In this document: in pieces, positions 40,045 through 64,000 of the stretch
How the letters are laid out: each line of letters opens with the position of its first letter
How positions within the stretch are numbered: the first letter of the stretch is position 1
Assembly: GCA_010015675.1 (NCBI GenBank)
Contig: ML977036.1
Location: forward strand, 173,067 to 237,066
Origin: Byssothecium circinans
Taxonomy: Eukaryota; Ascomycota; Dothideomycetes; Pleosporales; Massarinaceae
Reading direction: 5' to 3'
DNA: 64,000 nt
Notes under the pieces: model-generated
What the model was told of the DNA's origin: nothing
Seen by the model: the letters and a program-made list of their open reading frames with translations, nothing else
Databases searched by the model: none
Program-made: the position numbers and the translations under genes

Positions 40045-42172
40045 ATGGGCACTCCAATACTAGCTCTCGAGACGTACCAGTACACATCGCTTCGAGCCGG
40101 GGACTCGACTTTCCGACTCCTGAAGCTATTGCAATACCGAGGTCCTGAGCTCGAATGTGAGCTTTTCCCGCAGTCGCTATCGAACAATGAACACGTTTCA
40201 TATGAAGCCCTCTCCTACGTATGGGGCAGCACCGAGCTTGTGGAATGCATAATACTTAATCGAAAGCGGCATTGGATAACAGACAGCCTGTACTCTGCGT
40301 TACAGTACTTGCGATTGCACGACAGAGACCGTTATCTATGGATTGATGCAATATGTATCAACCAAGCCGACAAAGAAGAGAAGGGCTGGCAGGTTCAGCA
40401 GATGGGAAGAATCTTTGGATCTGCTAAGGAAGTTCTCTTCTGGCTGGGAAAGGCAACGATAGAGATCACGAGTCTTATAGACGCACTCAATCAGCATTCA
40501 AGGACAGGTGCAGATTGCCAACTTGGACAGTTGACACTTGACGACAATCGTTGGGATAATTATCGTACCGGTTTACGGCAACTACTACGCCGACAGTGGT
40601 TCACACGGGTCTGGATTCTACAGGAAGTAGCAAACGCTCGAAAAGCTACTGTCTGTTGTGGCACTCGGTCCATTCCGGCGGATATATTTGCTTGTGCACC
40701 GTCCGTAATACGAGAAGAGCCTGAGCCGCACTGTCAACCTATATTGGAGATGATGCCAGGGCCTTCCCGGTCAGGATCTTGGTGGGGCCAGAAACGAGAC
40801 TTATGCACCCTCCTCCGCAGATTCCCAGCGAGCAAAGCAACAGACGAACGCGACAAGATATACGCCCTACTCGGCATGTCCTCTGAGCCTCTAGATACCC
40901 AAAGCATTGATATAGACTACCAGAAGCCGACTCACCAAGTTATTCACCGGGCTGTAACATATCTGCTTCATTCCACACCTGTATCCGTTCATGAGATTCT
41001 TAATCTCATGTACTACTTCGAAACTCTGGAAACAACCTATTTTGTGCTACGATCTGAGCAAGAGGAGGCAACAGAAATTCTTTTCCCTCATCTTCAATCA
41101 GGGAAAGTGCTGAACATGCCGATCAAGCCTGAAGAACCTGAGTTCATGTCCCAGGGCATAGTAGTTATTAATGATCCAGCGCTGTTCCTGTTTGAAAAGA
41201 GACTAGAAAGAAATTCCAAAGAGGAGGAGACATGTTACAGCCAGGTTGTTAGGCTTGTACTAGGCGGCCGGACGAACAAATCACAAGAACATGAGAAATA
41301 CGATAAGGGATTGCGGGTATTTTCATGGGGAAGTCCTGAGCACCGAGTCAAGATAGTGGTTATTCAAGACAGGAAAAAAGCTATAATAGGGGCTGCACTA
41401 CAAGGGTGCGGGCACATTGTGAAACACTTGCTGCACTTAAAAGTAGGAGACGAAGAAGGAGAGAAACTGGAAGATGAAGTGCTCGGAGAGGCCATAGATG
41501 AGGACCACATGCTGGCCGTTCAAACGATACTGCATCAGAATACCCATGTGCACGTGCACGTGCAGGGTGGATACCTTCGCAACGCACTCCAGGCGGCTTC
41601 ANNNNNNNNNNNNNNNNNNNNNNNNNNNNNNNNNNNNNNNNNNNNNNNNNNNNNNNNNNNNNNNNNNNNNNNNNNNNNNNNNNNNNNNNNNNNNNNNNNN
41701 NNNNNNNNNNNNNNNNNNNNNNNNNNNNNNNNNNNNNNNNNNNNNNNNNNNNNNNNNNNNNNNNNNNNNNNNNNNNNNNNNNNNNNNNNNNNNNNNNNNN
41801 NNNNNNNNNNNNNNNNNNNNNNNNNNNNNNNNNNNNNNNNNNNNNNNNNNNNNNNNNNNNNNNNNNNNNNNNNNNNNNNNNNNNNNNNNNNNNNNNNNNN
41901 NNNNNNNNNNNNNNNNNNNNNNNNNNNNNNNNNNNNNNNNNNNNNNNNNNNNNNNNNNNNNNNNNNNNNNNNNNNNNNNNNNNNNNNNNNNNNNNNNNNN
42001 NNNNNNNNNNNNNNNNNNNNNNNNNNNNNNNNNNNNNNNNNNNNNNNNNNNNNNNNNNNNNNNNNNNNNNNNNNNNNNNNNNNNNNNNNNNNNNNNNNNN
42101 NNNNNNNNNNNNNNNNACGAGCAGCTGGTGAAGCTGCTGCTCGACAAGGGCGCCGTCACCAACGTTGAGTGA
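40045..42172 (+). CDS. HET-domain protein with C-terminal ankyrin repeats, interrupted by assembly gap
   Basis: The ATG at 40045 (MGTPILALETYQY) starts 519 readable codons before the run of N. The HET domain is unmistakable: VSYEALSYVWGS (about 51-62), YLWIDAICINQADKEEKGWQVQQMGRIF (98-124), VLFWLGK and WFTRVWILQEVANARKATVCCG (185-206). Later come TDERDKIYALLGM and, before the gap, sequence of ankyrin-like character (IIGAALQGCGHIVKHLLHL). After the gap, EQLVKLLLDKGAVTNVE and stop look like the end of an ankyrin array. HET proteins trigger cell death on non-self recognition in vegetative incompatibility. The frame before the gap does not match the frame after it across 515 N, so the gap size is nominal or an intron lies inside. 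It is the last intact gene before the repeat-rich tract. Confidence 0.88.
41602..42116. other. Assembly gap (515 N)
   Basis: A run of N inside the HET/ankyrin gene. Ankyrin repeat DNA is repetitive, which may be why the assembly broke here. Confidence 0.99.
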
Positions 42173-44472: not shown

Positions 44473-44933
44473 TGTTACGATCTAGAAGCGGGGTCGCCAC
44501 ACTTATGTAATAACTAGCTGCACGCCCCAACCAGACAGACGGTCACGAGTAGTAAGTAAGTCACGTGACCATCCTAGCGTCCTAGGAATCCCAGAAGTCC
44601 CATGAGGGACTAGGACGAGTGGGACGGATGGGACGAAGGGACGCAACTAGTATATAGATAGACTTGATCTCTACATTGTAGGAGTCGTGTTCAACCTTTT
44701 ACTTAGGATTACAATCTATTTAGTATCTCATACTCCATGATTGTAAGCTTACCTAAGTTCACTAAGTGTACGCCCTTTAGACGAACATTACCACGTACTG
44801 TTGGAGTACCACCATGTGTCGCGAATTGATATCCCTTCTAGAGAACCAACTGAGCTCCAGAACCTCAAGCACCCTTGTCACCTAAAAGCTCTTTGAGCCA
44901 TCTCTAGTAATAAGCCCCCCCTAGATCTTAACA
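44473..44933 (+). repeat. 5' LTR of element A (461 bp)
   Basis: Begins TGTTACGATCTAGAAG and ends GATCTTAACA. It matches 50759-51219 end to end with transition differences only in the parts compared. Confidence 0.95.
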
Positions 44934-44953
44934 TTTTGAACACCCTTAGAAGG

Positions 44954-45865
44954 ATGTCTAAGACACACGATACCTAATCCTACGGCAACGCTAGCAAGGT
45001 CGCTAAACTAGATCTCTACTATGGAGATCGCGCCAAACTTAAAGGATGGCTCCTGCAAATTAACTTATACTTCAAGTTTGCAGCTAGTACCATTGACGAC
45101 GTAGACAAAGCCTCCTTTATTACGACCTACATGCGTGGTGACGCTAAATGATGGATTAACCCTTACCTCGCCAAATACCTAGACGACGATAATGATGATG
45201 ATGAAGTCATGATACTCTTTAAAGACTATACTTAATTTAAGACCCATCTCCGACAGGTCTTTGGAGTCTCAAACGAGGAATCCGTCGCAGGAAGGAAGGT
45301 GCAGCGCCTCAGACAACAACGCTCGGCCGCTGAATATGCCGCGGAGTTTCAACACTACGCAATTCAGACGGGCTAGGAAGATAAGGCACTCATGACAATG
45401 TATAGACAAGGCCTTAAGGATACCGTTAAAATGGAGCTCATGCGATTAGGAGCATCCATCACCACCTTAGAGGAACTATACCAGGAATCCATCAGAATCA
45501 ACGGACAACTATACGAGTTGACATCCGAGCTACATGACAAGCGAAGTAGACTCAGCGCGGGTAAGACTAAGAGTACCTACACCTGACCTAGGTACTTCCC
45601 CGCTATGAAGCTACGGAAGCAATACTCAGATCCCTACGGGTTGCAGCCAATGCAGCTTAATAACGTTGAGAAAGGGAAAGGGAAGGGCCACCGCTACAAG
45701 AAAGAAGCTAGGACGTGCTACTCGTGCGGAAGAACAGGCCACATCGCCAGAAACTGTCGCGTGAAGCCAGGAAGAGCTAAGCACACGGTCCAACGACAGT
45801 TAAATATAATCACGGCATCACATGCTTTAGGCTGCCTCCCTGACGTTAAAGAAGATGACGAATAG
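44954..45865 (+). pseudogene. gag of element A with in-frame stops
   Basis: Frame from ATG 44954 to TAG 45863-45865. It has a retrotransposon gag core (DLYYGDRAKLKGWLLQINLYF, then ..FKTHLRQVFGV.., RLRQQRSAAEYAAEFQHYA and ELYQESIRINGQLYEL) and a CCHC zinc knuckle CYSCGRTGHIARNC at about 45717-45758. Stops at the 7th codon and several later positions are TAA, TGA or TAG. Two stop-free stretches remain (45392-45586 and 45605-45865). Pol lies in another frame (-1 relative). Confidence 0.88.
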
Positions 45866-48800
45866 GAAGTGATCAATTCAGGCGAAGAAAGAGGAAACGC
45901 TGTTAGACGAAGGCTACAGGAACTATCTGTAAGAAAAAGGGTCAGCTAAGCCGCCAATTAGATATGGCACAATAAGGAAGTCAACACTATGGATAACAAA
46001 GTCTAGGACTTCCTTAACGACCCTAACCAACCCCTTAACGCGAGAGAACAACAACTTCGGGACTACTTACTCAGCGAACGAGCCAAGGATAATAAAGGAC
46101 CATCATGGGCTGACAGGGCTCTTCAAATCATTAGTAGAAAAGAAGAATACCTTGGAAAAGAAAATTAAGATCCCTATGACTCCGAACTACCTTATACTGA
46201 AGTCGCGCAAAGAAACCATCCACGATGGACGGATAAAGACCTAATATGGTACGACAGCGAAGTCACATTAGATAGTGACGAACCAATGGATTAAGGACGC
46301 TTAGGATATAATAACTAATACTAGAAGCCCAGCGCAGGACTCAACGATGAGTACCTGTACGAAGATCTAAACCCTAGGCCTAGGAAGCAATAGAAGCTAA
46401 GGCACCAGTAGGAGAAAGCCTATGAGAGGCAGGCCAACTAGGTGGACTAAGAGCTCGCAGAAGGAAGCATCCAACGAGCGGCACAGTAGGAAGAAATGAC
46501 CAAAGAATTGCGGTACGATATAGACTATCAAAATGGAAACCACGGAAAGCTTAGCTTCACCTAGTGTAATAACGACGGTTGTCTCACCCACTACGATGCG
46601 AAGGTGAAAGCAAGCTATTTCCTAACTATTAAGAAAGATTACAAGTTTAAATAGTATGACTACTATGACGATAAATGCCTAATATACTTATACGATAAAC
46701 GGGCACGACCATGGTTCCTGGGGAAAGAAGATCCTACGGAACTAATAAAGATGAACATGATTATTAATGACATCTACACTTAGAGCAAGTGGCAGACATG
46801 TCTACATACTAGGTGCAAGAGACACGCTAAAGAAAAAGAGAAGAATAGATTTAGAGCATCTTTTTTAGACCCTTACCTAACACTGCTAAAGGGTTGCACA
46901 CCTTAGAAGCAGCAGGTGAACGCCTAATCAAAATCCCAATCCATCTTAGTGGCAGAAAAATGAAGGCATTAGTAGATTTAGGATTATAAGTAAATTACAT
47001 CTTAATAGTAATGGCGCTCTTAGCGGGACTAAGGCCACTACTAAAGAAGGATCCCTACCCACTATACGTAGCAAACGGACAAGTCATGCTAGAGTAACCT
47101 AAGATCTAACATAAGATTACCTTAGCACTTATGAAAATCCACCACTACAGCGAACGGATCACCCTAGACTGTTTTGAGATGGCCACTCACAACGTCATAT
47201 TAGGGATCCCTTGGCTAAAAAGACACAACCTAGTAATTAACTAGAAGAACGACATGATATCATTAGTGAACTGCGCCTGCTAACGCACTTCAAAGCCTAC
47301 GCACCGACGGCGTTCGATGGTAGATGAGAAGGTAATTAATAACATTACTTTAACAAAGACGCGTTCAGTGAGAACAGTTAACTCTATAGATGCTACTTAG
47401 TCAACAGATTAACAAGTAAGAGTAAAGGAGAAAAAGGCACCTCTAGAGATCCCTAAAGAGTATAGAGAATGGGAGCACCTCTTTTAGGAAGACGTAGGCG
47501 CCACGGCGCTACCTAAGCATTAACCCTAGGACTGCGAAATTACGCTATAGGAAGGAAAGCAACTAACTTTTGGACTAATCTATTAACTATTAGAGAAAGA
47601 ACTAAAGGCTCTACGAGAATACATTAATAAGAGCCTAGTAAAAGGCTACATACGAGAGTTAAAGTTACTAGCAGGATACCTAGTCCTCTTCGCCCTAAAG
47701 AAGGACGGATCGCTGCGACTATATGTAGACTACTGGAAACTAAACGAAATCATAGTCAAGAATCATTATCTATTACCTAACATTAGAGAACTGCAGGATT
47801 GACTAGCGCGTGCAAAGATATTCACGGCTCTTAACCTATAAGACGGATACTATCTTATCCGCATAAAGGAAGGCGATAAATAGAAGATAGCATTTAGGAC
47901 ATGATACGGACACTATAAATATACTGTGATGCCCTTTAGTCTTACTAACGCCCCAGCGACTTTCCAAGCATTAATTAATAACGTATTGCGGACACACCTG
48001 GACATCTTTGTGATCGCATACTTAGATGACATACTTATCTATTTAGAAAACGTTGAAGAACATGTGAAACATATTAAGCAAGTACTTTCGTGCTTAGATG
48101 CCGCAGACCTGCGCCTCAAGCTAGAAAAATGCGAATTCCACAAGGAAGAACTTAACTTCCTAGGATTCGTAGTCAACACTACAGGGGTCAAGATGAGCCT
48201 AAAGAAAATACAAGTAGTATAGGACTAGCCGACACTAACAACAGTCAAAGAAGTGCAGGAATTCCTTGGATTCTGCAACTTCAACAGGAGGTTTATCAAA
48301 GAATACGCCTTGATAACCTTACCCCTGGTAGGACTCACTAGGAAGGACGTACTCTTTAGATAGTTAGAAGCATAAGAGAAAGCATTTAAAACCCTAAAAG
48401 AAAAATGTATAAGCCCACTAGTACTAGTAGCATTCAGGAGTAGAGAACTAATAAGAATTAAAACGGACGCATCTAATCTCGCACTCGGAGCAGCAGCTAG
48501 TTAGATGAGAAACGGCTAATGGCACCCTATTGCTTACTACTTAAGAAAGTTCTTAGGACTAGAAGAACGTTACAACGTACATGATAAGGAACTAATAGCT
48601 ATTATGGATTCATTAAAGCACTAGAGGGTATACGTAGAAAGCTGCTCTAAACTTACCATCTTTACTAACTATAAGAACCTACTTTACTTCACGACGACTA
48701 AACAACTTAACAGAAGACAAGTCAGATAGTCTGAGTTGCTTAGATAATATAAATTCAAGATCATATACACACCAGGCAAGGAGAACGGACGGGCTAATGC

Positions 48801-50220
48801 CCTCAGCCGACGAAGTGATATCGCAGGAACGAAGGAAACCATCAAAGCACCAATACTACGAGCTAACAAGGACGGGACCTTAGGACCGACCTAATAGCTA
48901 AACGGCATCCTGTGAATCAATAATAAAGTACCAGAGGAACTATAGGAAGAGATTATACGACAACATCACGATAACCCTGTACATGGACACCCTGGCATTT
49001 GAAGGACTATTGAACTAATTTAGAGAAATTATAAGTTTAAGGGCATAAAAGAAAAGGTTACACGCTTTATTAGCAGATGTATGGACTGCTAGAAAAACAA
49101 ACACAGCACGCACGCATCCTACGGAGAAATGCAACCCATTGAGCTACTAAAAACGCTATGGGAAGACATCTCTATAGACTTCGTAATAGGTCTACTAGTA
49201 TTAAGGGACCTTATAACTAGGATAACCTATAACGCTATCTTAGTAATCATTAATAGGTTTATGAAATACGCGGAAATGATACTATTCAGAAACAACTACA
49301 ACGCGGAATAACTTAGACACGTAATCCTAGATCAACTTATTAGATACTATGGCATACTAAAGTCAATTATTAGTGATAGAGACAAGCTCTTCACATTAAA
49401 TTACTGGAAAACGCTGATGGCTGCGATTGGAACGAAACGTAAGCTATCCACAGCATATCATCCGCAGACGGATGGACAGACGGAAAGAACGAATCATACG
49501 ATAAAGACATATCTATGAATCTACAGCAATACCTAGTAGAATAATTAGGTTTCCCTTTTACCTATAGCTTAATTAGCGTACAATAATAAAATATTAGAAT
49601 CCATAGGACAAACACTATTCTACGTAAACTACGGGAAACACCTAAATCTCTTTAAATGCACACTGCTAGGAGGCAAGGCAGCGGTAGCTTTAATAATGAT
49701 AGAGGACTTAAAGAACGTACACTAACGGTTATAGGTCAGCCTTAAAACGGCATAACGTAAAAGCATTTCATACGTAAACACAAAACGAAAAATGGCACCT
49801 TAGCTAGAAAGGGGGGATAGAGTATACCTACTTATAAAGAATCTTCGCACAAAATAACTAAGCAAGGGACTAGATAACGTTAAAGTTAGACCATTTTTAA
49901 TACAAGCTAGGATAAGCCCTATCAACTACTGACTCTAGCTACCTAAAGAAGCTAAGATACACCTAGTGTTCTACGTATCTAGATTGGAACTAGCAGACCC
50001 TAAGACACCGTTATAGAAAACATTCCATTATAAAGTTAAGGAAGAAAATAAATTCAAAGTCGAAAAGATCATAGACCAGAGAAATTGGAAAGGTAGAAGA
50101 GAATACCTAATTAAATGGAAAGGTTACCTAGAGAATGAAAACACATAGGAACTAATTACACACCTTATAGGTTACAAGTATCTCCTAAAGAACTAGCATC
50201 AACATTCTAAAAAGGCGACC
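45866..50220 (+). pseudogene. pol of element A (PR-RT-RNaseH-IN-chromodomain), degraded
   Basis: Protease: ALVDLG at about 46966-46983 in place of the usual ALVDSG. Reverse transcriptase about 47640-48220, with MPFSLTNAPATFQ and AYLDDILIY (about 48016-48042). RNase H about 48400-48830 (KTDASNLALGAA, YNVHDKELIAIMDS). Integrase zinc finger about 48960-49110 (HH..CC), catalytic core about 49130-49510 including ISIDF, SIISDRDKLF and AYHPQTDGQTER. Chromodomain about 50050-50170 (KIIDQRNWKGRREYLIKWKGYLENENT). Many TAG/TAA stops interrupt it. Confidence 0.9.
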
Positions 50221-50371
50221 AATTAATGGTAGCGGCACTGAGCGCGGCCTCTGGATTCACTAAAGTGATATCCTAAAGTAGAGCCTCCTACGCTTCTAAC
50301 GCCTCTAACTCCTCCATAGACGACATTCCTTTATCAAACATTTCCTGCTCCTTCTAACAAAGCAGTTTCTT

Positions 50372-50647
50372 TTATTTATGAAGCCTTGAAAGCTTCTCCC
50401 TCACTAGACGGGCGCGCTGTAGAGTGGCCTTGGCAATATCCTCTTCCATACGTAAGTGAGCCTCCTCTTCTTCTTCTAACGCCTCAAGACGACCCATCTC
50501 CTTATCAATTTTCGAGAAATCTAGTAAAGGTAAACCCGCAGGTTCACACAAGCTACGCCCAACACGAGTACAGTTATTGCAACGCTTGTGCGAGGACGAC
50601 AGTTTGCAAGGGAGCTGGCGGTCAGCGCAATAAGAACAAGCGACCAT
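50372..50647 (-). CDS. Antisense ORF of element A: Zn2Cys6-like motif plus coiled coil
   Basis: 91 residues, intact, on the strand opposite to gag-pol, between the chromodomain and the 3' LTR. The N-terminus has six cysteines spaced C-x2-C-x6-C-x8-C-x2-C-x7-C (CSYCADRQLPC ... CNNC ... C), which fits the fungal Zn(II)2Cys6 binuclear cluster rule (x2, x6, x5-12, x2, x6-8). The rest is acidic and helical (EMGRLEALEEEEEAHLRMEEDIAKA...), a probable coiled coil. Elements B and C carry an antisense ORF at the same place with the same cysteine spacing. There is no stop here although neighbouring pol is full of them. Role unknown; a DNA-binding or Gag-like accessory protein is inferred. Confidence 0.75.
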   Translation of the reverse strand: MVACSYCADRQLPCKLSSSHKRCNNCTRVGRSLCEPAGLPLLDFSKIDKEMGRLEALEEEEEAHLRMEEDIAKATLQRARLVREKLSRLHK

Positions 50648-50744
50648 GGCGAAGGAACCGCGACTGTCGATATGGTCAGCAAGTTGATGGCGGTGACGAA
50701 TGGAATAAAAGGGTGGTTATTAACTCATGAGGACATTAAGCTCT

Positions 50745-50755
50745 AAGAGGGGGGA
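50745..50755 (+). other. Polypurine tract of element A
   Basis: AAGAGGGGGGA directly upstream of the 3' LTR, the expected primer for plus-strand DNA synthesis. Confidence 0.85.
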
Positions 50756-50758
50756 TAG

Positions 50759-51219
50759 TATTATAATCTAGAAGTAGGGTCACCACACTTATGTAATAAC
50801 TAGCTGCACGCCCTAACTAGACAGACGGTCACGAGTAGTAAGCAAGTCACGTGACTATCCTAGCGTCCTAGGAATCCTAGAAGTCCCATGAGGGACTGGG
50901 ACGAGTAGGACGAATAGGATGAAGGGACGCAACTAGTATATAGATAGACTTAATCTCTACATTATAGGAGTCGTGTTTAACCTTTTACTTAGGATTATAA
51001 TCTATTTAGTATCTTATACTCTATGATTGCAAGCTCACCTAAGTTTACTAAGTGTACGCCCTTTAGACGAACATTACCACGTACTGTTAGAGTACCACCA
51101 TGTGTCGTGAATTGATATCCCTTCTAGAGAACTAACCAAGCTCTAGAACCTCAAGCACCCTTGTCACCTAAAAGCTCTTCGAGCTATCTCTAGTAACAAG
51201 CCCCCCCTAGACCTTAATA
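50759..51219 (+). repeat. 3' LTR of element A (461 bp)
   Basis: Begins TATTATAATCTAGAAG (TGTTACGATC with G-to-A and C-to-T changes) and ends GACCTTAATA. It is followed by the ATAGC duplication at 51220-51224. Confidence 0.95.
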
Positions 51220-51224
51220 ATAGC

Positions 51225-52415
51225 CTTGCTAACGTTGCCTATATACTACGTTAATCCTGTACCTTATATCCTATACCTTATCTATAATAGCTTGCAGAGC
51301 TTACTATTCTTATTAAAGGCCTTCCCTCTAGTATATCTTAATAAATAAGGATAAGTAACCTGCGTAAACCCTATAATTTACCCTAGTACTTAGATCTAGG
51401 GTAGTAAAGTAGAGTAAGGAAGAGGTTTAGTAAGAGAAATAGCCTAGCTATCTAGGGTCTATACTGCTTTCTAAAATATAGGAATATTATCTAATTCTAG
51501 ATTTAGGCGTAGTAGTAGCTTATTGTAGTCTAGCGTAATATTAAGCTTATTAAGTTCCTCTAAAGAGGTTAAATTATATACTATAAACGCCTAATTATAA
51601 AAGAGTATACTAAGGAGGAAGATATACGGACTAAAGATAAGAGTCTTATTATATATAATTTTAGGGAGAGGGAAAGTGTTCCTTAGAAAAGAGTTAGTAG
51701 TCTTATAAACTCTAGTAGAAATAGAAAGTATAATAATATATATATCTTTAATCCTAAGGAACTCCTTTGTAAATTTAAAGATAAACTTAAGTAATACTTA
51801 ATAAGGGCTACCCTTTAGATTTTATAGCAACGTAACCTATATATACTAATAGTAGAGACTAAGAAGAGCCTAAGACTAATTTACTATAAAACTACCTAGT
51901 TATAGATAGAGTTAGGCTTGTATCCTATAGCGTCTGTATAGGTATCTCTTTTTAGTTATTACTAGGTTTATTTATAGTACTAGGGCTAGATCTTTAATAT
52001 ATATACAGGCCTTATCTCAGCTTATCTTCTTAAGACTGTACTTCTTCGCTAGCTTTCTTAGTACCTATTTGTTACGTTAGGCGTAGATACACGTATAAGA
52101 ATAGAACTAAGAGGCTAGTCCTTTATACCTTATATATACTCTAATTTATCTTTCTATCTAGCTTTACGCTAGTTGCTTTTTTATATACTAGGCGGAAAAC
52201 TTTCTAGTACATCTCTAGGGAGCTAGTAAGCTTAGTCCCTTAGCGTTTCCTTTTACCTTTCCCTTAGCGCTAGCCTAGTAGCTAGTTAAAGAATATATAT
52301 AAAGTAGTAATAGATATAGTTACATAGGTATAGTAATAGTCTTTCTAGAGGTATATCTAGTACCTATACTATATTAGTCCTACGTATTCTAGCGTAGGCT
52401 ATAAGGGAACAATAG
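51225..52415 (-). pseudogene. DUF3435 gene relic, N-terminal/middle part
   Basis: Read on the minus strand this precedes the 44472-43534 segment once element A is removed: ..GNVSKAI joins to .NLIIGHASIAKF without a break. Upstream one recognises KKYSLKKI followed by a helix-rich block with ALVL (about 52060), QALLSLYY.YIQVTLL (about 51870; family GxRPGALLxLxYRDIxL), the KFIFKFTKEFLRIKD stretch, LDYNKLLLRLN and YPYLLRYTGGKAFN (51360 region; family YSLRYxxGxxF). A probable intron (GTAAGC...TTAACGTAG) lies at about 51340-51250. Stops are frequent and mostly TAG/TAA. The 5' end is lost or displaced by element C, whose LTR begins at 52416. Confidence 0.7.
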
Positions 52416-52875
52416 TGTTACTAAGAGGTATACTTGCTAGTCTTAATCCGTGTAAAGGGAGGTCGGTAGGTGTAAGGTGTATACATTAGGTAGTATGCTT
52501 TAGTAATTTAAGAGGTAAATGTGTAAAAGTAACTAATTCTATAACTAACTATAGAATAACTAAGTATTAATCTAGGTAAGAGATAAACTATTAAAAGTTA
52601 ACTACGAAGAACTAGAATTAGAAAAATAAAAGAGATCTGTCTAGTCTTTATACTACTCATTCTGTTCCTCCGCTAAGTCTTTGATCCTGCCTAGAGCCTC
52701 TGCTTCTTTTAATTCTAAGATCTCTTTATAATCCTAGGATCCATAGGATCCTTTAGCCTTAGCGGGATTACAATTACGTAACTAATGCCTTAACCTTATC
52801 CTATGCCCTACTATCTAATACTTTCCCTAAGCGTATCGTTCCTCCGTAGCTATACTTATACATTATCTTATAATA
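52416..52875 (-). repeat. 3' LTR of element C (460 bp)
   Basis: On the minus strand it starts TATTATAAGATAATG after the polypurine tract and ends CTTAGTAACA. It resembles the LTR of B over its downstream half (the ATTAATACTTAGTTATT region), but differs upstream. Confidence 0.85.
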
Positions 52876-53036
52876 TTATCCCCCTCTTTAAGGTTATTAT
52901 TTTAATATCCTAAAAGGTGTGTCTACTATGCCACTTCTTCTTATAGCTAGTATATAAGTCGTGCGTGTCTCTAGTTGCTCATAGTGTCGTAGCCTCTTCT
53001 AGGGTTTTACTAACTTTTCTTTAACTATGCCTAAAG

Positions 53037-53690
53037 TTCCGTCTAAATTGTTAACTGCACGCCGTCGTAATCGCGCTAACTAGATTCGTTCTTAAAGGCT
53101 AAAGATAATGCTAGGTTACAAGCGTTGTTAGAAGCGTAAGCTTCGTTATTTTATTAATGCAGCTATAGGTTAGTGTGCCGCCTACATTTAGGTTTATGCT
53201 AAGTGCAGTCTGTTTGTTCCTAAAGAAGAGTAAAAGAAAGTATAAACAAAGAAAAAAAAAAGTAAATTGCGCTTTTTTATTCTAAGGTAGAGGCTGTGCG
53301 GCTTTAAGCTGAATCTACCTAACTTCGCGTGGAGCTAGCTAAGTTAGAAGCCTATAAGCGCTTTTTTACAAACTAGGATTACTATGTCCTAGCTATAATA
53401 GATGCTACTTAAGAGGTAGAGATTTTAAAGAGTACAGAGTCTACTATTTTATCTAAACCACTATTATCTAAACCGTCGTTAACTAACCTAGGCTAGTTGC
53501 AGGCTAATCCTTCTTTAATTTCTTTTAATCCTTCTTTATCCTTTAACTTTTCCGCTTTCCTAGCGAACACGGAGTTACTGCTTCTAGATGCTGCTAGTAG
53601 TAGTCCTTTACTAGTTTCCTATAGTCTATAAGATTCTATATTAGTTCCTAGGTATTCTAGCTATCTGGCTAGTTCTTCTACTTAACTAAG
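53037..53690 (+). pseudogene. Antisense ORF of element C: degraded Zn2Cys6-like protein
   Basis: It lies opposite to C's gag-pol between chromodomain and 3' LTR. From ATG 53037 a basic start (ARRRNRAN) leads to a cysteine array with spacing C-x2-C-x6-C-x8-C-x2-C-x6-C at about 53133-53220, in which three of six positions are now Tyr (TAC/TAT, from TGC/TGT by G-to-A). Then come LFVPKEE and a Lys-rich helix. Several TAG/TAA stops follow, and a frame change is needed after about 53380. The right end is uncertain. Confidence 0.55.
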
Positions 53691-53699
53691 TACTTCTAC

Positions 53700-54486
53700 T
53701 AACGCTTAAATTTTCATAGGTTCTTAATTTCTTCGACCTTATAATCCTTATCCTCAAGCTTAATCCGTGTCTTGATTTCGGCGTCTAGTAGTGCTAGTTC
53801 AAGGAGTGATTTATAAAAAATAGAGTATATACGCATACCTTTAAAGAGTTCTAGCTTAAACGTTACTAGTCCTTTAGCCTCTAGGATTTGAAAAGGTCCT
53901 ATTTAGAGGTTATCTAGTTTATCGCATAGTCGCTTAGTTTTTAAGTTTTTTTGTAATAAGAAAACTTTATCCTCCTCTTTAAGGGTTAGTTTTTTAAGCC
54001 TTTTCTTGTTTACTAATCTAGCTGTCGTAAGGTTCCTTTAAGCAATTCGTTAGCTTAATTTGTTATGCAGTTCGTGAAGTAGTCGCGCCTTATCGTTAGC
54101 TTTTACTAAAAAACTCTTAACGTCTTTAAGATTTTAATAAGCAATTAGCTTATATCCATAGTTCGCGTAGTACGGTAAGTATCCTATCGTTAAAGACCTC
54201 ATGCTATTATAGGCTAATTATGCTATTAGTAGAAGTTTAACCTAGTTATCTTATAGCTTATTAGCGTACATTCTTAGATACTATTCTAGTGTCTAGTTTA
54301 TTCGTTCCGTCTAACTATCTATTTACAAATAAAAGCTAGTTAAAAGCTTCTTATTAACTCCTAGCTTTGCAAGGAACGTGCTCTAATACTTAAAGGTAAA
54401 TAGTGTCTTATAATTAGTAATAAACTATTCTAGTATACCATATTAACTAATAAGTGCCTTAGTTACTTTGTAAGCTATTTCTTTAG
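53700..54486 (-). pseudogene. Element C integrase C-terminal part and chromodomain, degraded
   Basis: The reverse complement shows the same segments as B 60120-60790: the Q.DG.TE.. region near 54320, the KLFLL..NLKT stretch near 53950, and a chromodomain-like KVEEI start near 53760. All frames have stops. Confidence 0.7.
54482..54486. repeat. Target-site duplication TTTAG, left copy (element B)
   Basis: TTTAG directly precedes B's 5' LTR and recurs at 62053-62057 after its 3' LTR. Confidence 0.92.
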
Positions 54487-54961
54487 TGTTATGAACATAA
54501 TAGATACAAGGTATCTAAGACTAGACAGTACAGCGCAGAGGGTGTTAAGGCCAGAGGACAGCGACACAGTGACGCGCGGGGCAGGATTAGGTCAGCGATC
54601 ACGTGACATTGATCTCGCCAAGAATAGAGATCACAGACTAATCTCTGGATCTTAAGAGATTAAGAGATCAAGAACGATCTCAGGATCTCTAGAGATTATA
54701 GGATTAAAGGAATAGAATGGACGGCATAAAGACTAGACGGATTTCCTTTATCTTTCTAATTCTGATTCCTCGTAGTCAACTCTTAATAGTTCATCTCTTA
54801 CCCAGATTAATACTTAGTTATTTTATAGTTTGTTATAGAATTAGTTTACTTTATACGTTTGCCTCTTAAATCACTAAAGAACACCACCTAACGTATACAC
54901 TATATACCAACCTTCCTCCCCTCATATGGATTAGGCTAGGCCAGTATACCCCTCGGTAACA
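54487..54961 (+). repeat. 5' LTR of element B (475 bp)
   Basis: Begins TGTTATGAACATAATAG and ends CCTCGGTAACA. It includes GATCACGTGACATTGATC and a run of AGAGATTAAGAGATC-type short repeats (54640-54720). Confidence 0.95.
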
Positions 54962-55000
54962 CTTTAACTACCCACAGGTTCAAGAACCTAAACGTACGTA

Positions 55001-56040
55001 ATGGCAGCTCCCGCTACCCTACGTGCCGCTAGCAGTAGTGTCAATACACCTGCTTCAAGCCCGGCATCAGTGATGGCCACCTAGGCCAACCAGTTGCAGC
55101 AACAGGCCACGCAGATTAACGAGCTGATGCAAGCAATAGCTCAGCTTTAGGCCGGAAATACTGCACCTCAGGGAAAGATCGCGGCGCCAGAAAAGTACGA
55201 TGGAGGATGAGATGGCTTAAAGCCATTCCTCACTAACATGGATTTATACTGTCGGTTCAACCTCATAACAAACGATGAAGACAAAATCCTCGCGGCCGGC
55301 ATGCACTTAAAGGATAAGGCAGCTGCCTGGATGCAGCCCTTCATGGACGACTACCTCTTAAATGATATAAGGAATCGCAAAGACGACACGAAGGCTATCT
55401 TCAAGAGCTAGACAAAGTTCAAGGAAGAGATTCAGAAGGTGTTTGGAGAGCTCAATGAAGAGATCCAGGCGGAGTAAAAGATCTCTTAGATCTAGCAGGA
55501 TAGGTCAGTCACTAGATATGTGACAGAGTTTAAACAATTGCAGTCAAAGATTAATTAGGATGATGCGCCGTTGCGCACAGCCTTCTACAATGGGCTGAAG
55601 GAAGTCGTCAAAGATAGGATGATCCATCACGACAAGCTAGAAGACTTATAAGACATGATTAACCTAGCCACCTAAATCAATAATAGGCTCTACGAACGAG
55701 CGCTGTAGAAGAAGCAATGGGACACGACGATCATTCCTAACTCTAGACGTTATAGGAAACCAAGGACACCACGTTACGACCGCGATGGTGATGTGGTAAT
55801 GACAGACAAAGTCTAATAGAAGAAGTAGTTTAATAAGGGCAAGGGAAGATAGCCAGACGGCCTAACCCACGAACAACACTAGGAACGCTTCAAGAAGAAA
55901 GCATGTCTCTGATGCGGCGAAGTGGGACACTTCCGCAGAGACTGCCTAAAAAATCAGGGCTAAGCAAGCAAGCTTGGAGCGGTCAAGATTAGGATGATTA
56001 AGTTCAAGGTAACGGGACCTAAGGAAAATGATTCAGAGGT
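55001..56040 (+). pseudogene. gag of element B with in-frame stops
   Basis: From ATG 55001 (MAAPATLRAASSSVNTPAS). A helical NQLQQQATQINELMQAIAQL stretch precedes the gag core (KPFLTNMDLYCRFNLI, AAGMHLKDKAAAWMQPFMDDYL, LQSKIN, APLRTAFYNGLKEVVKDRM) and a CCHC knuckle CL.CGEVGHFRRDC at about 55906-55944 in which one codon is now a stop. At least ten in-frame stops. Confidence 0.85.
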
Positions 56041-59000
56041 GCTACGTAGGTAGCCTACTCCTTGCCCACCTTTAGAAGCAGATCAGACTATGGAACCATC
56101 TGACGGCGAAGTCAGCGACATGGAATCCATCTTAACCTAAGTGACGTAACCCCTGAACTAGACAGATGACCACGAGGTCCTTCAACGGCTTAAAGAAGAT
56201 CTATGCTAGATGTGTAGAGACAACACACATAAAGGCGAAACATGTACCCATGATATGCTAGTGCGTGGCGGCCATGCCCACGAAGCAGTAGTAGCAGCAA
56301 TGAAGGAATAAGGCCCGCAGACGAAAGTACGATAAATTAAGGTTAATGACGAACATGACGAAGTCAAATGGTATAACTACACAAGGGAGTACTATGTTAC
56401 TTACTTATAAGAAAGATAGAGCGTGCGACACACACCTAGACGAGCCTCTTACGCCCTCCTCCCGTTAACGGACTGCATGGAAGATAACTGCCACGTGCAT
56501 CACTTCAAATATTAGTAGAAATGGCATGAACGCCTAGGATAGAGTAGGTGCTACGATACGCACTACTAACTACACTAGCTTAGTAAGCATGTTGCGGGAT
56601 ACTGGCTAGCTAGTAGAATAGATAGAGAGATAATAGTATGTAAGAATAGTATATGTCTCTACCATTACCCTATGGGACACCCTTTAGATAAGGGGCATAA
56701 GGAGATTGACTGGAACGAATGTCCATCCCTCCTAGGATGCATGTTTCATCTCCTCCTAAAGGAAGAAGTAGTATAGACCTAGCGCGGAGCCCACTATGAG
56801 CTACTACCTCCTTCTAAGTGCTTAGCGGACGTATGCAAATGACACAAATTCCTGCCACTTCCTGACGAGACTAGGGAAGATGCTTTCAGACGAAAGATAG
56901 CACTCACGCGATAAATATGGCAGACGTTGCTAGAAACGCAACACTGGCTACAAGGCCATCTAGAAAACAGGGCTGCTAGAGATAACATCTTGCATACCTA
57001 GACTATGAGACGCCCACCTAGAGCTATCATTAGGGAAAGTCACAACGACCTCCCCTATGAATAGTGCTTCGATGACATGTATTAAGCACACCTCTAAGAG
57101 AAACTTAGGAGAGGTTTCCCACGATGAAATGATATTAAGGTAGAGCATGCCTACCTGCCTTAGACAGCGTGCCTTATAAATGACTATCAAACCTACATGC
57201 TTAAGGAATAAGTAGTAGAAGAGTCCACGTAGGGACTATAGAGATCAAAAAACTAGGATGCTACTAGGGACAAGGTCACGCTAGTGAGAGCACTTCTATA
57301 ACGACCCTATATAACGTACGATACCTAGATCTACTAGCTTATCAATTAAAGGTAAAGGTGCGCGTACACGGACGTAGGCTTACAGCACTAGTAGATAGTA
57401 GAGCTGCATAGACAATTATCTCCCCATGAGTAGTTAAGAAATATGATATACCCTATTAGGATAAGGAACGTCTAATATGAGTGGTACTAGCTGACGACGA
57501 ACTAATGTCCTACGGCAATAGATTCTTAAGGTTAGAAACCTAAGAAGTATCATTCCACGTACTTAGAATTAAGGACACGACATCCCTCAACATTATGGAT
57601 CTTGGTGAAGAAGACATGTTAATTAGTTACGATTAGCTTAGGAAGCATAATCCTGCCATAGACTAGTAGAAAGGCACGATGTTTAGCTAAGAACTAGCGC
57701 GCAAGGTTACTAGAACACGTCATGGAAGATTAAGCCTGGTAATCTAGAGCTTACCTAGTTAGACTAGACGGATTAGCAAGATATCACCTTATAAGATTAA
57801 GAGAATCTATGAGAAGGACCCTTTGTAAATAGGAGTTATATAGATACGGAGAGTTACGCCTATAAAGGACGAACCCTGACCAACAATACCACCAGAATAC
57901 GAGGAGTTTCAAGACCTATTTAAAGAAATAGAAGAAACCGCATTACCAGATCACTAGGAATGGGATCACGAGATTCACCTAGAAGAAGGCGCGAAGCTGC
58001 GCCTAGGACTAATATATCCGCTTACTTAAGATTAGCAGTTAGAACTGCGAGAGTACATTAAGAAGAACTTAAAGTAAGGATACATATAAGAGAGTGCCAG
58101 CCTGATGGCTTCGCCAATTCTTTTTGTCCTAAAGAAGAATAGAAAGCTGCAACTCTGTGTGGATTATAGATAGCTAAACCACGTTATAAGGAAGAACCGT
58201 TACCCTCTTCCTCTAATCTAGGAGCTTATAGACCACCTCTAAGGAGTTAAGTGGATTACGAAATTTGATATATAAGATGGATTCTATTGAATATAGATAG
58301 CTAAGGGCTTTGAATAGCTGACTACCTTTAAAACTTAGTATAGACTATATGAGTATACGGTTATGCCCTTTAGACTAATAAATGCACCTATGACGTTTCA
58401 GGCACTTGTTAACATAGCACTTCACAAATACTTAGACGTTTTTATGACTGCGTACCTAGATGATATACTAGTGTATACCTTAGGAACGCTTAAGGATCAC
58501 ATTAAACACGTTAAGAAGGTGCTTAGGAAGCTTAGGGAGTATCAATTACCCCTATAGCTAGAAAAATGCGAATTCCACGTCACGGAAATGGATTACTTGG
58601 GATTTATCATCTCGCGAGAAGGCATTGCCATGGACCCAAAGAAAGTTAAGGCTGTACAGGATATAAAGACGCCTAAAATAGTTAAGGACGTGCAATCCTT
58701 CCTAGGATTCGCAAACTTCTATTGAAAGTTCATTCAGGGATACTTAAAGACTACGGCGCCTCTTACAGAGATCACTAAGAAAGAAAAGGGATTCTATTAA
58801 AGACAGGAATAATAGAAGGCTTTTAATAAGCTTAAGGAATTATTCTTATTAGCCCCTATGTTATAGATGCACGACCCGGAATGGCTACTGTGAGTGGAAA
58901 CGGATGCATCAGATTACGCCTTAGGAGCAATCCTCTCATAACAAGGCGATGATAGGAAATAGAGACTAGTGTTCTACCATTCTTAGAAATTCTTAGGAGT

Positions 59001-60790
59001 AGAACTTAACTATGACGTTCACGATAAGGAACTACTAGCGATAGTAGACTCCTTTAAATAATAGTGAGCCCAGCTAGTAGGCGCTAAATACTAGGTAGAG
59101 GTATATTCTAATCACTAGAACCTAATAAGCTTCATAACGACTAAGAAGCTCAACTAATGACAGGTTAGATGGGCTAAGATGATGGTGGATTACGACTTCA
59201 AAGTACACCATCGCCTAGGAATGCTGAACGGAGTAGCAGATGCTCTTAGCCAACAATTGGACCTTCAGGAAACAGATAGACCTATTACACACGACGCGGT
59301 CCTACAAAAGGATAAGGATGGCAGTCTAGGCTACAATCAACCATGGCTGTTTAAAGGAACTCTAGTTGAATAGTTAGCTAAGGTAACTAAGGTTACATAA
59401 CTACGAGATAAGAAGCTTGATAAGCTTACTAAGGTAGCCAGGATTAATTACTAGGGACTAGAGGTGCATGACTTTATAGACTATAATTATTTAACCCTAG
59501 ACCAGAGGGCAGAATACGACTTAATTAGGTATCTTAAGGCTAGGCCACCCTAAGACAAGAAATAACAGATCTTACTATGCGAAGAACTCGCACTAACCCT
59601 GATATGAAAGCTACATGAGTCTAAGGAATATAGACACCCTGGGATTAATAAAATGGTTCAACAAATCTTAAATAAGTACTTAATCCCTAATGTATAAAAA
59701 ATAGTTTAGAACGCAATAGGCAACTATTTAGCATGTTCTAAGAATAAGCCTAAGAGACATAAGCCCTATGGATTACTCTAACTACTAGAACCACCCACAC
59801 GCCCATGGATTAGCGTCACGATAGACTTCATAGTAAAGCTCCTAAAATCATTAGAACCTAGATTAGCACGGCTATATGACTTAATATTAGTGATCGTTAA
59901 CTAATTAACTAAAGCATCAATATTCATACTAATAGAAGAAATAGTTATAGCTAAAGAAATAGCTTACGAAGTAACTAAGGCACTCATTAGCTAATATAGT
60001 GTGCTAGAATAGTTCATCACTAATCATGGAACACTATTCACCTCTAAGTATTAGAGTACGTTCTTAGTAAAGCTTAGAGTTAATAAGAAGCTTTTAACTA
60101 GCTTCCATCCACAGATAGACGGCTAGACGGAACGGATGAACCAAACACTAGAATAGTACCTAAGAATGTACGCTAATAAGCTGCAGGACAACTAGGTTGA
60201 ACTCCTGCTAACAGCACAATTAGCCTATAACAGCGCGAGATCCTTGATAACAGGATACTCACCGCACTACGCGAATTACGGATATAAGCTAATTGCTTAT
60301 CAAGATCCTAAGGACGTTGAGAGTCTTTTAGCTAGAGCTGATGATAAGGCACGACTACTTCGCGAGCTGCATGATAATTTGAGCTAACGAATCGCTTAAA
60401 GGAACCTCACGACAGCCAGATTAGTAAATAAGAAAAGGCTTAAGGGACTAACCCTTAAAGAGGGGGATAAAGTTTTCCTATTACGAAAAAATCTGAAAAC
60501 TAAATAGCCATGCGACAAACTAGACAACCTCTAAATAGGACCCTTTTAGATCCTAGAGGCTAAGGGACCCGTCACGTTCAGACTAGAGCTTCCTAAAGGC
60601 ATGCGCATACACCCTATCTTTTATAAATCGCTCCTTAAACTAGCACCACCAGACGCCGAGCTAGAGACATGAATCAAGCTTAAGGACGAAGATTACGAGG
60701 TCAAAGAGATCAAGGACCTGCGGAAATTCAAGCGTTAGTGGAAGTACTTAGTTAAGTGGAAGGACTAGCTAAACAGCTAGAATACCTAGG
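56041..60790 (+). pseudogene. pol of element B (PR-RT-RNaseH-IN-chromodomain), degraded
   Basis: Protease ALVDSRAA at about 57385-57408 (DSG changed to DSR by G-to-A). RT about 58040-58660 with MPFRLINAPMTFQALVN and AYLDDILVYT (58363-58480). RNase H about 58880-59200 (ETDASDYALGAIL). Integrase zinc finger about 59600-59760, core about 59790-60160, chromodomain about 60690-60795 (YEVKEIKDLRKFKR.WKYLVKWK). Pol is in frame -1 relative to gag. Confidence 0.88.
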
Positions 60791-60970
60791 AACTATTATG
60801 AAATCTTATAGGCTATTAGGATTTAGTGAAAAGTTATTACTAATGGTATCTAAAGGTAGTGGTCCCAAGTTCACTAGGAAGGCAGAAAAATTAAAAGATA
60901 AGGAAGAATTAAATAAGAGAGAAGAGTTAGCCTGTAACTAGCCTAGGTCAGTTAATAATACGGGTAGCAG

Positions 60971-61300
60971 TTATAAAGGCACAACAGTAGCATCCGTACT
61001 CTTAGGAGTAGCAGTTAATAACCCAGCCTTGCGTTTAAGACGCTCCATCTCTTCTATTAAGGCTAACTCTTGATAGTACATCTCCTTCTCTTAATAATTA
61101 AGTTTCTCTAACTCCAGCTAAGACTTAAGAATTAGGATACGAAGGCGACTGCGCTTCGCATCTAGCTTAGCCTATTCACGAGGAGACACGACTAGATCAC
61201 ACTTGCAGTTATGATCAATACACTCGAAACAACGCCTAGAATCTAAGCTCATGATACACTTCTGACTCTCCTTGTGACAAGTGGAGCATAGAGAAGGCAT
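60971..61300 (-). pseudogene. Antisense ORF of element B: Zn2Cys6-like plus coiled coil, three stops
   Basis: ATG at 61300, stop at 60971-60973; 109 codons with three internal stops (two TAG, one TAA), all explicable by C-to-T at CAG/CAA. All six cysteines survive with perfect Zn2Cys6 spacing C-x2-C-x6-C-x8-C-x2-C-x6-C (CSTC, C, CFEC, C). A charged, Leu-rich helical region follows. Same position and polarity as 50647-50372 in element A and 53037 onward in C. Confidence 0.7.
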
Positions 61301-61563
61301 TTCGCAACCATTTGCTAGAACGCGGCGAGCAAGTAGCTTTCAACGAGCGGTGGATGTGTCGGCAGGAATAGACAAAGGATCTGTATAAGGAACCTTTAGG
61401 ACTTAAGGACGGGATTCCCTAGGCATGGTTAGGCAGAAGGTTAAGGAATATCTAAGGAGGATATGACACTACCTATGGTGGGGAACTCGCACGCTTTATA
61501 CACTAGCTAAGGCCTAATGCGGCACAGCGGCTAGATCTTTATAGATATTAAGACGATAATCCT

Positions 61564-61574
61564 AAAGAGGGGGA
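61564..61574 (+). other. Polypurine tract of element B
   Basis: AAAGAGGGGGA directly upstream of the 3' LTR, nearly identical to the tract of element A. Confidence 0.85.
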
Positions 61575-61577
61575 TAA

Positions 61578-62052
61578 TATTATGAACATAATAGATACAG
61601 GGTATCTAAGACTAGATAGTACAGCGCAGAGGGTGTTAAGGCCAGAGGACGGCGATATAGTGACGCGCGGGGTAGGATTAGGTCAGTGATCACGTGACAT
61701 TGATCTCGCCAAGAACAGAGATTATAGACTAATCTCTAGATCTTAAGAGATTAAGAGATTAAGAATGATCTTAGGATCTCTAGAGATCATAGGATTGAAG
61801 GAATAGAATAGACGGTATAAAGACTAGACGGATTTCCTTTATCTTTCTAATTCTAATTCCTCATAGTTAACTCTTAATAGTTTATCTCTTACCTAGATTA
61901 ATACTTAGTTATTCTATAGTTTGTTATAGAATTAGTTTACCTTATACGTTTACCTCTTGAATTACTAAAGAACACCACCTAACGTATATACTATACACTA
62001 ACCTTCCTCCCCTTACACGGATTAGGCTAGGCTAGTATACCCCTTAGTAACA
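61578..62052 (+). repeat. 3' LTR of element B (475 bp)
   Basis: Begins TATTATGAACATAATAG and ends CTTAGTAACA, followed by TTTAG at 62053-62057. Its end looks more like C's LTR (CTTAGTAACA) than B's own 5' copy (CTCGGTAACA) because of RIP transitions. Confidence 0.95.
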
Positions 62053-62057
62053 TTTAG

Positions 62058-64000
62058 CTATAACCGTTTCTTCTGTTAGTACAAATATTAATGCTTTAGT
62101 TAATTAGTTAATAATTACTAATATTAAGTCGCATAGCCATGCTAATCTAGGTTCTAACGATTTTAGGAGCTTTATAATGAAGTCTATCGTAACGCTAATC
62201 TATAGGCGTATGGGTAGTTCTAGCAATTAAAGTAATCTATAGGGCTTATATCTCTTAGGCTTATTTTTAGAACATGCTAAATAGTTGCCTATTACGTTCT
62301 AAACTACCTTTCGTACGTTAGGGATTAAGTATTCATTTAAGATTCGCTAAACTATTTTGTTAATCCTAGGGTGTCTATATTCTTTAGACTCATGTAGCTT
62401 TCGTATTAGGGTTAGTACGTAAGCTTCTTGCAGTATAATTTATTATTTTTAATCTTAGGGTAGTCCTGCCTTTAGGTAGTTTACTAAGTCGTATTCTATC
62501 CTCTATTCTAAGGTTAAGCAACTGTAATCCGTGAAGTCGTGTACTTTTAGTTCCTGATAATTAATTCTAGCTACCTTAGTTAATTAAGGTTAATTATAGC
62601 TTATACTTTTATTATAGTCCTTTTATAGGACCGCGTCGTGCGTAATAGGTCTATCTATTTCCTAAAGGTTAAATCTTTAGCTAAGGGCGTCTACCGCTCT
62701 ATTTAGCGATCCTAGGCGATAGTATACCTTAAAGTCGTAATCTACTATTATTTTAGCCTATCTAACCTGTCATTAGTTAAGTTTCTTAGTCGTTATAAAA
62801 CTCGTTAGGTTCTAGTAATCTAAATACACTTCTACCTAATGTTTAGCGCTAACTAACTAGGCTTGCTATTGTTTAAAGGTATCTACTATTGCTAGTAGTT
62901 CCTTGTCATAAACGTCGTAGTTAAGTTCTACTTTTAAGAACTTTTAAAAGTAGTAGAACACTAGTCTCTACTTTTTATTATTACCTTACTATAAGAGAAT
63001 TACTCTTAGGGCGTAATTTAATGCATCCGTCTTTACTCGTAGTAGTCGTTCTAGGTCATGCATCTATAGCATAGAGGCTAACAAGAATAATTCCTTAAGC
63101 TTTTTAAAAGCCTTCTACTGTTCCTATCTTTAATAGAATCTTTTTTTCTTCTTAGTAATCTTTGTAAGAGGCGCCGTAGTTTTTAAGTATCTCTAAATAA
63201 ACTTCTAATAGAAGTTCGCGAATCCTAAGAAGGATTGCACGTCTTTAACTATCTTAAGTTTTTTTATATTTTATACAGCCTTAACTTTCTTCAGGTCTAT
63301 GGCGATGCCTTCTCTTAAAACAATAAATCTTAAGTAGTCTGTCTCCCTAACGTAGAATTCGTATTTCTTTAGCTATAGAGGTAATTGATACTCTCTAAGC
63401 TTCCTAAGCACCTTCTTAATGTATTTAATGTAATCTTTAAGCGTTCCTAAGGTGTATACTAGTATATTATCTAAGTACGCAGTTATAAAAACGTCTAAGT
63501 ATTTATAAAGTGCTCTATTAACAAGCGCCTAAAACGTTGCTAGCGCGTTTGTCAGTCTAAAGGGTATAACCGTATACTCGTATAATCTATAATAAGTTTT
63601 AAAGGTAGTTAGCCATTTAAAGCCCTTGGCTATCCGTATTTAATAGAATCTATCTCGCACATTAAATTTTATAATCTACTTAACTCCTTAGAGGCGGTCT
63701 ATGAGTTCTTAGATTAATAGAAAAGAGTAACAATTCTTTTTTATTACGTAGTTTAGCTATCTAAAATCTATACAGAGTCGCAGCTTTCCGTTCTTCTTTA
63801 GGACAAAGAGAATTAGTGAAGCTATTAGGCTTATACTCTCCCGTATATATCCTCACTTTAAGTTCTTCTTAATGTACTCTTTTAGCTTTAAATGCTAGTC
63901 TAGAGTAAGTAGATATATTAGTCCTAGGCGCAGCTTTGCGCCTTCTTCTAGGTGAATCTTGTAATCTTAATCCTAGTAATCTAGTAATACGGTTTCTTTT
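62058..64000 (-). pseudogene. Element C pol: integrase, RNase H and RT, degraded, runs off the window
   Basis: The reverse complement follows element B's pol: RNase H about 62700-63020, LTE.TK region about 63150, FLGF.NFY about 63210, RT with YLDN box about 63465-63485, MPF..TNA about 63540-63570, and the RT N-terminal part to the window edge. Stops throughout. Confidence 0.8.

Follow-up and report, generated by a model that had tools for sequence, protein, structure and literature searches.

An antisense zinc-cluster gene between pol and the 3' long terminal repeat of fungal Gypsy elements, and its possible role at the element's own promoter

The 64,000-nucleotide stretch of the Byssothecium circinans genome analysed here (the window) contains three Gypsy elements, A, B and C, and in each of them the interval from pol to the 3' long terminal repeat (LTR) holds an antisense frame of the same kind, which runs tail-to-tail into the end of pol. 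We have very little doubt that this frame is a real gene under selection, and the selection is demonstrated for the B and C families. Comparison among genomic copies gives a frame of 187 codons in A, 206 in B, 201 in C and 200 in a fourth family, D. The predicted protein of 187–206 aa begins with an N-terminal arm and a Zn2Cys6 cluster; a long helix, probably forming a coiled coil, follows, and the protein ends in a short tail of aromatic and acidic character. The best explanation, and in our judgement a probable one, is that the element encodes a Zn2Cys6 dimer that binds a motif array in its own U3 region and controls transcription from the LTR.

Extent and architecture of the antisense gene

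The initial annotation had reported antisense open reading frames (ORFs) in a common slot beside the 3' LTR of A, B and C, and our analysis confirmed this location. It also confirmed the cysteine spacing C-x2-C-x6-C-x8-C-x2-C-x7-C of A at complement(50372..50647) and the spacing x2-x6-x8-x2-x6 of B and C, three of the cysteines of C being read as tyrosine, a RIP-type replacement (RIP, repeat-induced point mutation). All of these fall within the Zn2Cys6 spacing that we used as a criterion (x2-x6-x5..12-x2-x6..8), C with its three tyrosines. The slot had been described as lying between the chromodomain and the 3' LTR; that position holds, but the frame also overlaps the end of pol, by about 70 nt in A and about 100 nt in C, where the pol stop is the first one retained after the chromodomain, as judged from copies damaged by RIP.

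The reported frames were real, but their extents had to be revised. The antisense gene of A lies at 50165..50728 on the minus strand (187 codons plus a stop, the extent being taken from copy L002). In L002 the frame is fully open, and its ATG, at 50728 in the window, is upstream of the methionine of the 91-aa ORF that was originally reported. That open piece (50372..50647, minus strand) includes all six cysteines and the beginning of the long helix and is only a fragment between RIP-type stops. The 21 aligned A copies have 166 stops over the 187 codons, every one of them at a codon that is Gln or Trp in L002, which is what RIP is expected to produce. L002 is the one copy of the 21 that is stop-free over the whole length, and the copy in the window (L001) has seven stops in the gene; the 91-aa stretch by itself is stop-free in 6 of the 23 genome matches. 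The gene of B lies at 60806..61426 on the minus strand (206 codons plus a stop, extent from the copies, end from the sequence). Its frame is present but not open in the window, with 3 stops in 109 matched codons, and the likely start is 61426 and not 61300. The gene of C, at 53027..53631 on the plus strand (201 codons in copy L053, end from the sequence), is also present, but it has 7 stops in its first 81 codons and then departs from the frame of the other copies. On the plus strand opposite the A gene, at 50386-50730, there is a sense ORF of 114 aa that looks like a complementary shadow and not like a gene.

Searches of this genome with the antisense frames gave 23 matches for the A query, 32 for B and 74 for C, with cross-hits counted. 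Pol was found antisense to the gene on the expected side at 23/23 A, 28/29 B-query and 30/30 C loci (81 of 82 together), and an LTR was found on the opposite side at 22/23, 28/29 and 29/30 (79 of 82); these counts cover 29 of the 30 B-query loci, L038 being omitted. The antisense gene belongs to the element, and its position between pol and the 3' LTR is that of the aORF-3R class. Family D, represented by copy L037, is repeated too, with 60 matches, the first 40 of which show 40–100% identity while the rest are B/C cross-hits and fragments.

The assignment of the cysteines to a Zn2Cys6 cluster was supported in the C type by the profile of the Pfam family PF00172 (Zn_clus), which gave 24.8 bits against a cut-off of 21 for the C copy L053 (with X at the stops) and matched 25 of the 27 aligned C-type relatives at E <= 1. 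At the same level it matched 4 of the 15 A-type rows (best E 0.064). The C-type alignment holds 27 of the 54 relatives, and the six cysteines are invariant in all 27; the A-type rows are 14 of 15 relatives plus L002. The six-cysteine pattern occurs in 49 of the 54 C-type relatives and in none of 2,940 shuffled relatives. Among the relatives found with the A profile it occurs in 28 of 93, many of which are fragments, and in 24 of the 32 that reach at least 150 aa. One profile search scored 7,996 candidates, namely those with most words in common. The A and C profiles align with each other over the cluster and the arm that precedes it (hhalign 96.8%, E 2.8e-10), and 21 of the 22 Foldseek matches of the A structure model in the PDB are Zn2Cys6 DNA-binding domains. 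Nine A-type relatives from the protein search have 181–191 aa and 57–74% identity, five of them being 186 or 187 aa long. Full-length relatives of the A type come from metagenomes, and those of the C type from Bipolaris, Pyrenophora and Exserohilum. One C-type zinc-cluster relative, P0051 from Pyrenophora tritici-repentis, bears the source name 'Chromo domain containing protein', which perhaps hints at a Gypsy context. Against the sequences of solved structures the C-type profile gave a single match, to a stretch of coiled coil (E 0.67). The fold search in BFVD returned no match at E <= 0.001, and no locus with a relative was confirmed in the scanned viral contigs or prokaryote genome contigs. 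A misread gag zinc knuckle was rejected as the source of the cysteines, that knuckle lying at 45605-45862.

Codon-position evidence for selection

RIP produces transitions, not transversions, and for this reason purine–pyrimidine differences were counted instead. Transversions common to at least two copies were tallied by codon position 1/2/3. The test covered 21 of the 23 A loci (the two others, pieces of a single broken copy, were omitted), 26 of the 30 B-query loci (L032 and L036 (truncated), L037, which is D, and L038, which is the place of the C copy L053, were omitted) and 30 C loci fetched among the 74 matches. In the part encoding the cluster and helix, the shared transversions of C were 1/1/14 (third position, binomial p 1.2e-5 against one third) and those of B were 9/4/18 (p 0.004). 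Pol, taken in its own frame as a control, gave 10/4/17 in C (p 0.011) and 9/4/16 in B (p 0.013). The transversions seen in single copies were flat in pol (C 68/59/58, B 48/55/55) and amounted to 8/1/7 in C and 3/2/4 in B for the antisense part. The A family offered only 8 sites, at 0/2/6 with singletons counted (p 0.02). Since these RIP-independent changes pile up at the third positions of the antisense frame in B and C, the protein was under selection there. The earlier proposal of an old, selected antisense accessory gene thus gains support from the third-position counts and from the homology of the A and C profiles. A chance ORF was rejected on the codon-position bias, on the six-cysteine pattern as compared with shuffled relatives and on the adjacency counts.

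One pol with divergent DNA-binding halves and U3 regions

The divergence between families was measured as transversions in five copy pairs, D being represented by its one copy. Among B, C and D, pol differs by 0.010–0.014 between families and by 0.009–0.011 within them. The part encoding the arm, cluster and helix differs by 0.234–0.255 between families and by 0.006–0.007 within them, and shuffled sequences give 0.255–0.277. In the cluster and helix, beyond the shared cysteines, 2–4 of the 24 compared residues agree. The tail of the gene differs between families by 0.033–0.040 and the leader by 0.105–0.127. Proximal U3 gave 0.138 for B–C, 0.303 for C–D and 0.217 for B–D, and distal U3 gave 0.151, 0.152 and 0.054 for the same pairs. 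By the figures of the D pairs, proximal U3 is the most variable segment there, the DNA-binding half aside. In these three families, which have one pol, the pattern suggests a joint change of the segment that recognises and the segment that is recognised. The R-U5 part differs by 0.041–0.086 between families, which does not exceed the range within families (0.049–0.094). Within C, R-U5 differs by 0.094 between L053 and L043, yet U3 and the antisense gene are near-identical; LTR ends seem to have been exchanged among elements.

Proximal U3, from CACGTG to the TATA box, consists of an array in which a short motif recurs; the motif is GGGAC in A, GAGATC in B, GATCCC in C and CTGAGCA in D. Pairs of repeated 6-mers exceeded dinucleotide shuffles in this segment in 8/8 copies of the four families (p <= 0.008), and in the control halves an excess was found in 1/8 (p 0.036). 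The commonest single 6-mer showed no excess in one copy, L043. When the motifs were counted across all copies the numbers were low and the B and C motifs overlapped; RIP and the use of fixed coordinates, with which copies with insertions were maybe undercounted, may be the cause. CACGTG stands ahead of the array in L053, L043, L010, L011, L013, L037, L003 and L006, which include all four families, and it may bind a host basic helix-loop-helix factor.

In B, C and D the leader of the antisense gene has a candidate promoter of its own. TATATAA faces the gene 76 nt ahead of the ATG and outside the LTR in L053 (C), L013 (B) and L037 (D). In the window the corresponding sequence of C is at 52951..52957 on the plus strand, 76 nt ahead of the ATG at 53027, and the TATA box facing the B gene is at 61494..61500 on the minus strand, about 74 nt ahead of the ATG and likewise outside the LTR. 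Either TATATAA or TATAAA occurs in the leader of 29/30 C copies and 26/26 B copies; a narrower pattern matched just 2 of the 26 B copies. By chance, TATATAA appeared in 0.12% of the shuffles of the L053 leader and in 8% of those of the L013 leader. In A the ATG is only about 31 nt from the LTR, so an antisense promoter would have to be in U3.

The initial annotation supposed that the antisense protein may act as a regulator of the element itself, of its targeting or of a host gene, and we infer its transcription, dimerisation, DNA binding, U3 target and activating role along the following lines. Transcription of the gene would oppose that of gag-pol. In B, C and D it would probably be driven by the TATA box that lies past the polypurine tract and ahead of the ATG, and in A it would come from within U3. 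The cluster would be of the GAL4 type, and the long helix would probably join two subunits as a parallel coiled-coil dimer. The dimer may bind its own family's motif repeats in proximal U3 and thereby control the promoter in the LTR; the aromatic/acidic tail makes an activator more likely than a repressor. Families B, C and D have one pol but differ in their DNA-binding half and U3 array, as would be expected of a self-recognition cassette. More tentatively, and as a possibility that we would not yet favour, the lineage keeps one pol and swaps the antisense DNA-binding domain and its own LTR motif array as linked specificity cassettes. Each family would then have a private transcriptional lock and key, insulated from its sibling families in the same genome.

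Some results weigh against a selected antisense gene with a Zn2Cys6 cluster. The C-terminal part of the antisense gene is without a third-position excess (C 5/1/1, B 1/1/2), and the shared transversions in the overlap with pol are 2/1/1 in C and 5/0/2 in B. Pfam Zn_clus fails to recognise the A type, and B reaches 14 bits, under the cut-off of 21. In the B–C pair, proximal U3 is no more variable than distal U3, and the idea of linked cassettes is weakened by this pair.

The selected protein could instead bind DNA at other targets, where it steers integration or alters host genes, while host factors bind the U3 arrays. The Zn2Cys6 architecture and the selection are silent on the target, and CACGTG in copies of all four families suggests that host factors act on U3 too; however, in the D pairs, whose pol is common, a different DNA-binding half goes with a different proximal U3 array, and we consider this alternative rather unlikely. 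It was also considered that the cassettes of B, C and D are old lineages recombined under a recently shared pol, with no pairing of protein and U3, and that the A gene was maybe gained separately. The shuffle-like nucleotide divergence of the helix and cluster halves, the few residues that agree besides the cysteines, and the divergence of distal U3 and the leader (0.05–0.15) are all in line with such a history. The A and C profiles, however, have the arm before the cluster in common, and the B–D stretch between the two most variable segments differs by just 0.054 and 0.105, against 0.217 and 0.234 in those segments, which would fit one old block only if that stretch were constrained. This alternative ranks next and is, in our opinion, unlikely. 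That the antisense RNA matters and not the protein, for example as a source of small RNA with an incidental ORF, is very improbable given the codon-position bias of the antisense frame and the conserved full-length proteins, even if antisense transcripts are discussed as triggers of retrotransposon silencing in passages of PMC7264820. The idea that selection acts on an extension of pol on the sense strand, with the antisense ORF as its shadow, suggested by a sense frame open for 114–165 aa in A copies, was rejected as the most improbable of all, since in the sense frame the shared transversions of this stretch fall mainly at second positions (C 6/15/2, B 10/20/5; for A there are only 8 sites) and the protein-family evidence is on the antisense side.

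Known systems and the surrounding elements

The antisense protein resembles GAL4, HAP1, PUT3 and LEU3 in its cysteine spacing and in the predicted order of a cluster followed by a long helix. It differs from them in being encoded by a retroelement and in having under 210 aa. Fungal Zn2Cys6 host factors usually have a large central region, which the antisense protein does not have. Boty-like Gypsy elements with an antisense gene, brtn, were reportedly described by Zhao et al. in 2011. Our comparison with Boty and BRTN was made with descriptions in other papers; by these, Boty also belongs to the fungal Gypsy elements and has an additional gene, brtn, in antisense orientation between pol and the 3' LTR (in passages of PMC7264820), as well as a gag-pol with a CHROMO domain (in a part of PMC4227169). 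Passages of PMC7264820 place such antisense extra genes of LTR elements on record in plants and in Boty, without a determined function. There, the plant aORF-3R genes (Grande gene23, RIRE2 and Retand ORF4) are in the identical slot and orientation, are kept in most copies and are proposed to be regulators, and Grande gene23 has a promoter of its own upstream, while its product is nuclear. They differ in their domains, the antisense TRP28 of Retand being predicted to bind DNA in the portion of PMC11963269 concerned, and the passages on these plant genes mention no Zn2Cys6 domain.

Antisense extra genes themselves were already known, and what seems new here is the zinc-cluster version. A literature search, mostly outside subscription papers, found no description of an antisense Zn2Cys6 gene in a fungal Gypsy element. 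The HBZ protein of human T-cell leukaemia virus type 1 (HTLV-1) is a leucine-zipper protein, in contrast to the zinc cluster described here. As an antisense-encoded nuclear regulator of a retroelement, it is nevertheless comparable (in a passage of PMC11963269). The antisense promoter of HTLV is within the 3' LTR (in a passage of PMC7264820), whereas in B, C and D the TATA box is outside it.

The antisense gene has an interpretable architecture, evidence of selection away from RIP-prone sites and a testable target adjoining it. If our explanation is true, a retroelement bears its own fungal-type transcription factor and shifts the specificity of this factor together with the promoter. Among the small proteins that carry the annotation 'Zn(2)-C6 domain' in fungal genomes, some would then be retroelement genes and not host regulators.

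Element A is of the Ty3/Gypsy type and occupies 44473..51219 on the plus strand, with LTRs at 44473-44933 and 50759-51219 that are 92.9% identical and a target duplication ATAGC (boundaries read from the alignment output). In the window, Pfam recognised pieces of its reverse transcriptase (RVT_1) and the CCHC of the gag zinc knuckle. In other copies it recognised Integrase_H2C2 above the cut-off and rve below it (L002), and Chromo at 4.1e-15 (L003). With reverse transcriptase, integrase and C-terminal chromodomain pieces across its copies, the A family is a Ty3/Gypsy chromovirus; the chromodomains of B, C and D were recognised by eye and not by profile. Element B (54487..62052, plus strand; LTRs at 54487-54961 and 61578-62052, 91.9% identical) sits within element C and is flanked by the target duplication TTTAG at 54482-54486 and 62053-62057. 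Element C is reversed and split by this insertion. Its 3' LTR is at 52416..52875 on the minus strand, with 84.7% similarity to the B LTR over 255 nt and boundaries set by eye, and the rest of it beyond B, at 62053..64000 on the minus strand, is an inverted match to the B pol at 82–83% that ends at the window edge. The window comes from contig 60 of an assembly of 48.4 Mb, and its G+C content drops from about 41 kb onward. At the border of the gene-like and transposon parts, positions 41001-42000 have a G+C content of only 28%.
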